In this document: positions 47,296 to 54,594 of the stretch, in pieces
Layout: each line of letters starts with the position of its first letter
Position numbering within the stretch: the stretch's first letter is position 1
Assembly: GCF_016792905.1 (NCBI RefSeq)
Contig: NZ_JAEULP010000037.1
Span: 1 to 64,000, forward strand
Reading direction: 5' to 3'
From: Tabrizicola sp.
GTDB taxonomy: Bacteria > Pseudomonadota > Alphaproteobacteria > Rhodobacterales > Rhodobacteraceae
DNA: 64,000 nucleotides
Program-made: the position numbers and the translations under genes
Notes under the pieces: generated by a model
What the model was told of the DNA's origin: nothing
Seen by the model: the letters and a program-made list of their open reading frames with translations, nothing else
The model's database searches: none

Positions 47296-47317
47296 GTAGG
47301 TCGGGGTTCACCCCGAC
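47296..47317 (+). repeat. REP element (family a), solo copy
   Basis: GTAG followed by the perfect stem GTCGGGG / CCCCGAC with loop TTCA. The same 22 bp occur twice, inverted, inside the RAYT gene (54216–54237 and 54308–54329). This single copy lies in the gap between the rpoD-side genes and the ABM gene. Confidence 0.75.
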
Positions 47318-53942: not shown

Positions 53943-54034
53943 GTAGGGTGTGCATTCATGCGCACTACGATCTCACGACCGGCCAAACCCCGCCCGGCTG
54001 CCATCGTCTTGGTGCGCATGAATGCACACCCTAC
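53943..54034. repeat. REPIN (inverted REP pair), family b, at the 3' end of the RAYT gene
   Basis: Two inverted REPs face outward with their GTAG feet: plus copy 53943–53965 (hairpin GTGTGCAT-TC-ATGCGCAC) and minus copy 54012–54034 (same sequence). The minus copy's GTAG supplies the TAG stop of the RAYT gene. Two inverted REPs about 50 bp apart form a REPIN, the unit that RAYTs are thought to mobilise. Confidence 0.75.
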
Positions 54035-54594
54035 AATATGCCCGGATCACCATCCGCGTCGCGGTGCCACGACGAAAACGGCCACTCCCCCGGATGCCCG
54101 ACCAACCCGTGCTTCACCGGATTGATCCAGCAATACCGCACATGCGCCGCGAAATCCTCGTCCCCCCGGATGTGATGCTCCCAGAACCGCTTTTGCCAGA
54201 TGGGCGCTTCGCCGCGTAGGTCGGGGTTCACCCCGACTCTTTCTTCATACGCCCCACCCCGGCGCACACGGCCGCCGTTCGCACCATATCCGTTCTTCGG
54301 GGAAAGAGTCGGGGTGAACCCCGACCTACGAACGTCCCTTGTGAACTGCGCCTTGATCGACGCCATCCTTGTCGCATAATCCGCGTCCCCCTCCGGCAAT
54401 GACAAGACGCAGTGCATGTGGTCCGGCAACACCACCCAGGCATCAATCCCGAACGGTCGCTTCGCGCGGGTCACCGCCACCGCCTGCCGCAACACATCGA
54501 CATGTCGGACCAGCGTATCCGCCCCCCGGTCCACCAGATTGACCGTGAAGAAAACGCAAGCGCCGGGAACCCTGGGACGGATGTATCGCGACAT
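54031..54594 (-). CDS. REP-associated tyrosine transposase (RAYT, Y1/HUH superfamily) with an internal REPIN
   Basis: A 187-residue Y1-type protein: HUH motif LPDHMHCVL (H59, H61), helix with IKAQFTR, WQKRFWEHHIR, and catalytic Tyr region HVRYCWINPVKHGL (Y154). RAYTs nick single-stranded REP DNA. Residues ~90–127 (RSGFTPTLSPKNGYGANGGR … ERVGVNPDLR) do not belong to the family and are encoded by an in-frame inverted REP pair (54216–54329). Joining the flanks gives FTRDVR-GEAPIWQKRFWEHH, a normal RAYT. The stop is the REP foot GTAG. Confidence 0.82.
   Translation of the reverse strand: MSRYIRPRVPGACVFFTVNLVDRGADTLVRHVDVLRQAVAVTRAKRPFGIDAWVVLPDHMHCVLSLPEGDADYATRMASIKAQFTRDVRRSGFTPTLSPKNGYGANGGRVRRGGAYEERVGVNPDLRGEAPIWQKRFWEHHIRGDEDFAAHVRYCWINPVKHGLVGHPGEWPFSSWHRDADGDPGIL
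54216..54329. repeat. REPIN, family a, inserted in frame within the RAYT gene
   Basis: Inverted copies at 54216–54237 and 54308–54329: GTAG, stem GTCGGGG/CCCCGAC, loop TTCA; the shared arm extends to CTCTTTC. Feet face outward. The 114-bp unit is exactly 38 codons, so it preserves the RAYT frame. A third copy lies at 47296–47317. Confidence 0.8.

Follow-up and report, generated by a model that had tools for sequence, protein, structure and literature searches.

The 64,000 nucleotides of Tabrizicola sp. DNA analysed here (the window; contig NZ_JAEULP010000037.1, positions 1 to 64,000) contain a RAYT gene whose reading frame holds an inverted pair of REPs. The question raised by this locus is what such a pair represents within the gene of the enzyme presumed to mobilise REPs, and whether it is maintained there. 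On balance, we lean towards reading this 114-bp unit as two REPs of the RAYT itself that sit inside its own gene, in a loop cassette that would carry the enzyme's substrate and be kept as such. The answer bears on how RAYTs keep pace with REPs and on what binds a REP family to one RAYT.

The RAYT gene and its embedded REP pair

The features of the locus, in positions of the window, are the following.

54031-54594, minus strand: RAYT/TnpA_REP-type tyrosine transposase gene, 187 aa; open frame (NF047646, 4.4e-48; 4er8, 2e-39)
54412-54420, minus strand: HUH motif H59-M-H61, read in frame; H59 and H61 invariant in a 69-row alignment
54133-54135, minus strand: catalytic tyrosine Y154, read in frame; nearly invariant in the 69-row alignment
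54166-54198, minus strand: W133, Q134, E139, H140 and R143, corresponding in the alignment to 4er8 to E. coli W94, Q95, E100, H101 and R104 (GTAG-contact region, strand beta4; residues named in PMC6006769)
54216-54329, no strand assigned: inverted pair of embedded REPs (114 nt), read in frame as part of RAYT codons 89-127
54308-54329, minus strand: first REP in reading order, GTAGGTCGGGGTTCACCCCGAC, encoding RSGFTPT
54216-54237, plus strand: second REP (inverted), encoding VGVNPDL
54244-54301, minus strand: spacer of 58 nt between the 29-nt arms; this inter-REP stretch diverges among species much as the remaining gene does
53943-54034, no strand assigned: downstream pair of inverted REPs, of a different type (GTAGGGTGTGCATTCATGCGCAC); the TAG stop codon of the RAYT comes from its GTAG at 54031-54034 (minus strand)
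47296-47317, plus strand: further exact copy of the embedded REP, single

The NCBIfam profile NF047646 (REP_Tyr_transpos) matches the window protein across the full profile (4.4e-48, 162.9 bits, cut-off 80), and no Pfam family was found for it at E up to 0.1. The HuH motif and the single catalytic tyrosine that mark RAYT/TnpA_REP proteins are present (H59, H61 and Y154). The sequence-only reading had proposed an in-frame REP pair within a RAYT that retains its catalytic residues, and this is borne out: in the open frame of 187 aa, the arms at 54215-54243 and 54302-54330 form a perfect inverted repeat (29 nt, 100% complementary, 58 nt between) with GTAGGTCGGGGTTCACCCCGAC in each. RAYT genes are also expected to be REP-flanked, which holds for the window gene on one side only, by the downstream pair at 53943-54034; a GTAG REP was not found within 700 bp upstream. 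The coincidence at the stop codon is common, as the stop TAG is the TAG of a GTAG in 63 of the 93 RAYTs surveyed below, and 58 of those 63 begin a typed REP. Residue 64 of the window protein (54403-54405) is L, in a position where relatives have a nearly invariant W64, and judging from this substitution the activity of the window copy may be lowered.

When 54205-54340 was folded as single-stranded DNA, the predicted energy was -49 kcal/mol (z -8.08), and none of 200 shuffles was that low. So stable a fold could point to autoregulation, in which hairpins in the RAYT mRNA or in single-stranded DNA throttle translation or let the protein nick its own gene, and down-regulation of RAYTs by REP hairpins is discussed in PMC3733652. 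The sequence-only reading had named cruciform formation and self-targeting as possible routes of regulation. However, 20 of the 93 RAYTs surveyed have a short loop without a REP at this site, and it seems quite improbable that autoregulation accounts for the pair.

The unit had also been taken for a REPIN. It resembles the REPINs and REPtrons described in PMC6006769 and PMC3733652 in that its two REPs are inverted and a RAYT adjoins REPs. That part of the claim stands, but the dispersal as inverted pairs that characterises REPINs was not found. The window genome (G000) has 22 matches to the embedded-REP pattern, two of which are the embedded copies; among the other 20 pattern copies there is no inverted pair, since neighbours up to 600 bp apart on one contig are in direct orientation and the others are single. 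The window pair differs from those systems additionally in lying inside the gene. The flanking type has seven copies within 2 mismatches in the same genome, including the two of the flanking pair itself, and 12 REPs of the related GTAGGGTGCG class are present as well. The genome also holds a short piece resembling the N-terminus of a second RAYT (G000:C65:38639-38713; 80% identical over 25 aa), and this fragment may explain the second REP type.

Two other origins were rejected. A recent single insertion in the window genome is incompatible with the presence of the REP pair at the same place in eight congeners (G008, G027, G022, G003, G002, G005, G013 and G029), and an assembly artefact with the same structure in many other assemblies.

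Insertion site and relation to known systems

The closest solved structure is that of E. coli TnpA_REP (4er8; E 2e-39), which covers residues 1-86 and 130-180 of the window protein in two aligned blocks and has only 4 residues of its own between them. This sequence alignment places the insert between helix alphaC (alpha3) and strand beta4 of the E. coli protein, between E. coli residues 86 and 91, after K82 and before W94. The earlier claim that the 114-bp unit can be removed to leave a normal RAYT was right in that the unit is in frame, but it is not a clean insert of 38 codons. Because 4er8 has 4 residues at the site and short-loop relatives have 20 other residues there, what happened was the replacement or extension of a linker and not the interruption of a gene that is the same in all other respects. 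The GTAG contacts are placed in beta1, around beta4 and at the C-terminus in PMC8266576, where a possible role in binding REP stems is also suggested for helix alpha3 'and downstream region'.

E. coli TnpA_REP belongs to subclass 2.2 (RAYT group 2), and its five GTAG-contact residues are the same in the window protein (W133 to R143, above); these residues are common to other subclasses and so not decisive. Subclass 2.2 is further marked by a C-terminal extension of about 20 residues (PMC8266576). The window protein has 8 residues after HRD and the E. coli protein about 25, and because this extension is lacking the window protein is not filed as 2.2. The two proteins differ also in the linker, which has 4 residues in E. 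coli and 43 in the window protein, and no REP was found inside the E. coli gene.

The sequence-only reading had called a REP pair inside the transposase gene unusual, but in-frame cases were already known from a different RAYT subclass. Quentin et al. (2018, PMC6006769) call REPs in frame inside the gene, generally between the HuH and Y motifs, a feature unique to tnpA_REP subclass 2.4, and the window gene shares it. However, subclass 2.4 has the motifs NH[IFV]H and YIxNNP and a variable insertion between beta3 and alphaC, a position at which insertion domains are restricted to subclasses 2.3 and 2.4 (PMC6006769), whereas the window protein has DHMH and YCWINP, and its insert is aligned after alpha3 and before beta4. 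Membership in subclass 2.4 was rejected on account of these differences in motifs and insertion site.

Palindromic repeats read in frame within proteins are also represented by the intragenic GTAG and CGTC REPs and the Rickettsia palindromic elements of PMC3733652. Those elements are spread over unrelated genes, whereas the window REPs lie at one place in a RAYT gene. In the literature searched, including the accessible parts of PMC3733652, PMC8266576, PMC2817692 and PMC3686654, REPs inside RAYT genes are described only in PMC6006769, whose sections consulted here report for subclass 2.4 neither a match of type with dispersed REPs nor cassette exchange. The locus is of a known kind; as far as this literature shows, its lineage and insertion site are additions, and so are the agreement in type with dispersed REPs, the constancy of the arms and the exchange of cassettes.

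Embedded REPs in related RAYTs

Related loci were drawn from 148 related genomes, 52 of which had a match, and from a scan of named genomes (Tabrizicola, Defluviimonas, Yoonia, Roseovarius, Paracoccus, Marivita and others; best 80 of 557 kept). The resulting 110 RAYT loci (L039-L148), from the Rhodobacteraceae in a broad sense, gave 93 rows with 92 different cores. No frame was found in four loci (L079, L103, L137 and L147), and a further 13 were set aside as duplicates or partial copies (L051, L052, L057, L061, L069-L073, L087, L115, L141 and L144).

A recognisable REP lies in this linker in 66 of the 93 RAYTs, a count that is no unbiased prevalence because the loci were chosen by likeness to the window protein (best 80 of 557 in one scan). 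Among these relatives, a REP inside the RAYT is not the unusual arrangement that it had been thought to be. The REP-bearing linkers range from 26 to 78 residues. Short linkers of 20-21 residues without a REP are found in 20 RAYTs, and the remaining 7 have a longer linker without a perfect REP; in two of these (L046 and L047) both arms are present, each with a single stem mismatch that the two arms share. A looser scan of the 93 found at least one arm in 70 and arms on both strands in 55.

Of 385 genomes of the class, seven gave a match at E up to 1e-15, namely the window's own, two of the family and four outside it. A REP with a perfect 7-bp stem was found in none of the readable genes of a small sample that comprised five genes from the four genomes outside the family (one gene being cut by an in-frame stop and read only to that stop), two of the family, and one reference each from Cyanobacteria, Chloroflexota and E. 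coli; no frame was available for L149, L157, L161 and L166. A wide spread of embedded REPs in other families is thus not supported by this small sample.

Types of embedded REPs

The embedded REPs have four stem types, for which the names T1 (GTAGGTCGGG), T2 (GTAGGGCGGG), T3 (GTAGGCCGGG) and T4 (GTAGGGTGGG) were coined in this analysis; T6 denotes the GTAGGGTGCG-type REP. A further 21 REP calls in the loops fit no type, many of them being overlapping GTGG reads. Three stem pairs covary in 52 forward 22-nt arms. Specifically, pair 6-21 is T-A in 19, C-G in 9, G-C in 22 and broken in 2; pair 11-16 is G-C in 33, C-G in 17 and A-T in 2; and pair 12-15 is T-A in 45, C-G in 5 and other in 2.

The REP sequence differs by lineage, yet both arms of a gene tend to match. 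Of 55 loci, 27 have identical arms (mean 6.7 and at most 15 over 5000 shuffles); for T1 alone, 12 of 17 do (shuffled mean 4.7, at most 10). Within classes, none of 3000 shuffles reached the observed likeness of the arms for T1 and T2, and the likeness is weak for T3 and T4 (fraction of shuffles as high, 0.095 and 0.044). Additionally, all but 2 of 62 forward arms and all but 3 of 65 reverse arms have the GTAG in the same reading phase, with a second phase stop-free in nearly all; arms off the usual phase occur in L048, L086, L089, L092 and L136.

Match with dispersed and flanking REPs

T1-T4 were counted by exact pattern in 64 genomes selected from the loci (9 loci left out), and the RAYT locus with 700 bp on either side was excluded from the dispersed counts. 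In 44 of the 56 genomes that have both, no dispersed type is more frequent than the embedded one (ties included), compared with a mean of 16.6 and a maximum of 30 in 10,000 label shuffles, which ignore kinship, and a genome may hold several RAYTs. It is not the commonest type in the other 12. Overall, the embedded type was found dispersed in 55 of 57 genomes. No dispersed copy matching the exact pattern of the embedded type was found in G150 (T1; L076, Defluviimonas aestuarii) and G159 (T2; L085), where the embedded copies are the sole ones of their type and thus no dispersed donor for repair was seen. Three or more dispersed copies of T1 are present in 17 of 21 genomes in which it is embedded and in 1 of 43 in which it is not; the corresponding counts are 13 of 16 and 18 of 48 for T2, 8 of 12 and 11 of 52 for T3, and 12 of 13 and 15 of 51 for T4.

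The flanks of short-linker RAYTs carry mostly T6 REPs. Loci with embedded REPs were flanked by T1-T4 only in 37 cases and by T6 only in 4, and short-loop loci in 1 and 15 cases, respectively (Fisher 2.6e-9, kinship ignored); this comparison leaves out loci flanked by both classes (5 embedded, 2 short), loci without a flanking REP (20 embedded, 2 short) and 7 long loops without a perfect REP. There is no T6 among the 112 typed REPs in loops, although 28 of the 93 genes have T6 in their flanks and two of its three forward phases are stop-free. In the seven short-loop genomes counted, T1-T4 sum to at most 5 copies and T6 has 1 to 56. Embedded and flanking T1-T4 types disagree in 11 of 42 loci.

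These associations could mean that the peptide written by the REP, beside a REP-binding surface, helps to read REPs, so that the REP encodes part of its own reader. In the alignment the loop directly precedes the GTAG-contact region W133-R143, and, according to PMC8266576, REP stems might be bound by helix alpha3 and what lies downstream of it. Its state goes with the class of the flanking REPs, kinship ignored, and its phase is nearly fixed. However, L110 with a short loop and L076/L077 with a REP loop, whose cores are 89% the same, all have T6 flanks only. This group speaks against a simple rule that connects loop state and flank, and many other residues differ. A self-encoding recognition loop, in which the repeat, read as protein, would lie next to the GTAG-binding site and set the REP class recognised, is put forward tentatively, as a rather unlikely explanation. 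If it were true, a swap of the cassette would alter substrate and reader at once, and the association of embedded loops with G-rich-stem REPs and of short loops with GTGCG REPs would be accounted for. Natural proteins that differ mainly in the loop (L110, L076), together with loops that differ in REP type, make the choice of REP directly testable.

Constancy of the arms at the DNA level

Changes in exact arm codons were counted in nine ortholog sets, one of which is nested in another. In all nine, the arms show less synonymous change than other parts of the gene, and variable codons are significantly fewer in five. In the five orthologues from the window's genus (L039-L043), 1 of 13 arm codons is variable (pS 0.0), compared with 14 of 24 in the spacer (pS 0.31) and 83 of 147 in the rest of the gene (pS 0.36; arms vs rest, Fisher 0.0008). 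The counts for L099/L102/L117 are 0 of 13 in the arms, 13 of 15 in the spacer and 124 of 170 in the rest (1.5e-7). L046/L047 (0.022) and L081/L082/L084 (0.007) agree on calmer arms, as does the nested set L039-L042. The difference between arms and rest has the same direction and is not significant in L076/L077, L106/L108/L114 and L101/L105/L112, and L093/L107 hardly shows it (7 arm codons, pS 0.47 vs 0.57; not significant). Over the ortholog sets, pN/pS in the rest of the gene is 0.14-0.28, and this part is under purifying selection. In the significant sets the spacer has changed to about the same extent as the remaining gene and the arms have not, so the embedded events there are not recent. 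One stretch of DNA would here be constrained as hairpin and as peptide alike.

Homologues do have a loop at this site, as would be expected of an ordinary domain loop that is palindromic in looks only. However, the arms equal REPs that are dispersed in the genome, and in the five closest orthologues the arm codons are without synonymous change and the spacer has diverged like the rest, in agreement with the initial view that this is REP DNA. An ordinary loop is hardly credible on this evidence, and a loop without REP identity was rejected on the grounds of the dispersed copies and the constancy of the arm codons.

History and exchange of the loop

The core tree (93 rows, 128 columns) has many open forks, its bootstrap is not settled and recombination confuses it; on this tree, nine labels need 36 changes, compared with 60.7 when shuffled. 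On the starred branches by themselves, the short state must have changed 4 times or more and T4 8 times or more.

Two cases are more specific. L076 resembles L110 on both sides of the loop, with identities of 84-98% in the alignment windows that end by codon 75 and of 79-96% in those from codon 131; for windows 71-85 and 81-95 the identity to L110 falls to 67-69%, and L076 is there 82-91% like the Tabrizicola-group L042. L068 (G031) is 87-100% like L066 up to codon 85 and 80-89% like L048 after codon 141, and looks like a chimera, joined at the loop, of a short-loop L066-like gene and an L048-like one. Judging from these identities, the loop region is in both cases either an exchanged segment or a chimeric joint, and the REP loop has travelled between RAYT genes as a cassette by recombination.

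Such frequent gains, losses and swaps would also be expected if the linker were a neutral shelter. REPs may often land in or near RAYT genes, the linker being one of the few harmless spots, and the arms would be alike because the events are recent. The wide range of REP-bearing linkers, compared with only 4 residues in E. coli, agrees with this, as does the statement in PMC6006769 that such extensions may have little impact on activity. However, the significant ortholog sets combine a diverged spacer with undiverged arms, T6 is absent from the loops despite its frequency in the flanks and its open phases, and one phase is used almost throughout though a second is mostly open. Neutral shelter is thus possible, if on the unlikely side.

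The comparison shows the REP-bearing linker to be an old loop cassette of Rhodobacteraceae RAYTs. Under the preferred reading, that of a cassette kept with the enzyme's substrate, this linker between the DNA-binding helix (alphaC/alpha3) and strand beta4 would tolerate a REP pair. The RAYT would still act on its embedded REPs, and both arms would be kept as current REPs by cleavage with repair or by recombination with further REPs, with selection maintaining an open frame and a working enzyme. In this way the gene would carry its substrate in cis, internally and, often, also at the stop codon. Counting against this reading are the 12 genomes in which another type is commonest, G150 and G159 with no dispersed donor seen, the different type of the REPs that flank the window gene, the four ortholog sets without significantly calmer arms, the weak arm likeness in T3 and T4, and the 11 loci in which embedded and flanking types differ.

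Several loci are irregular. In L057 (G004:C6:104001-104523) the two halves of the RAYT are in different frames and overlap in the REP loop, and contigs end inside a RAYT in G012, G016 and G030, which may mean that REP loops break easily or are difficult to assemble. Tail duplications, in which the C-terminal part of the gene is repeated just downstream of a RAYT, lie at G008:C11:371474-371629, G009:C19:212635-212727 and G011:C111:55842-55934. Finally, some loops have more than two REPs, as in L145 (Roseicyclus marinus), which combines two types, T4 and T3, and in L045, which has an extra tandem arm.
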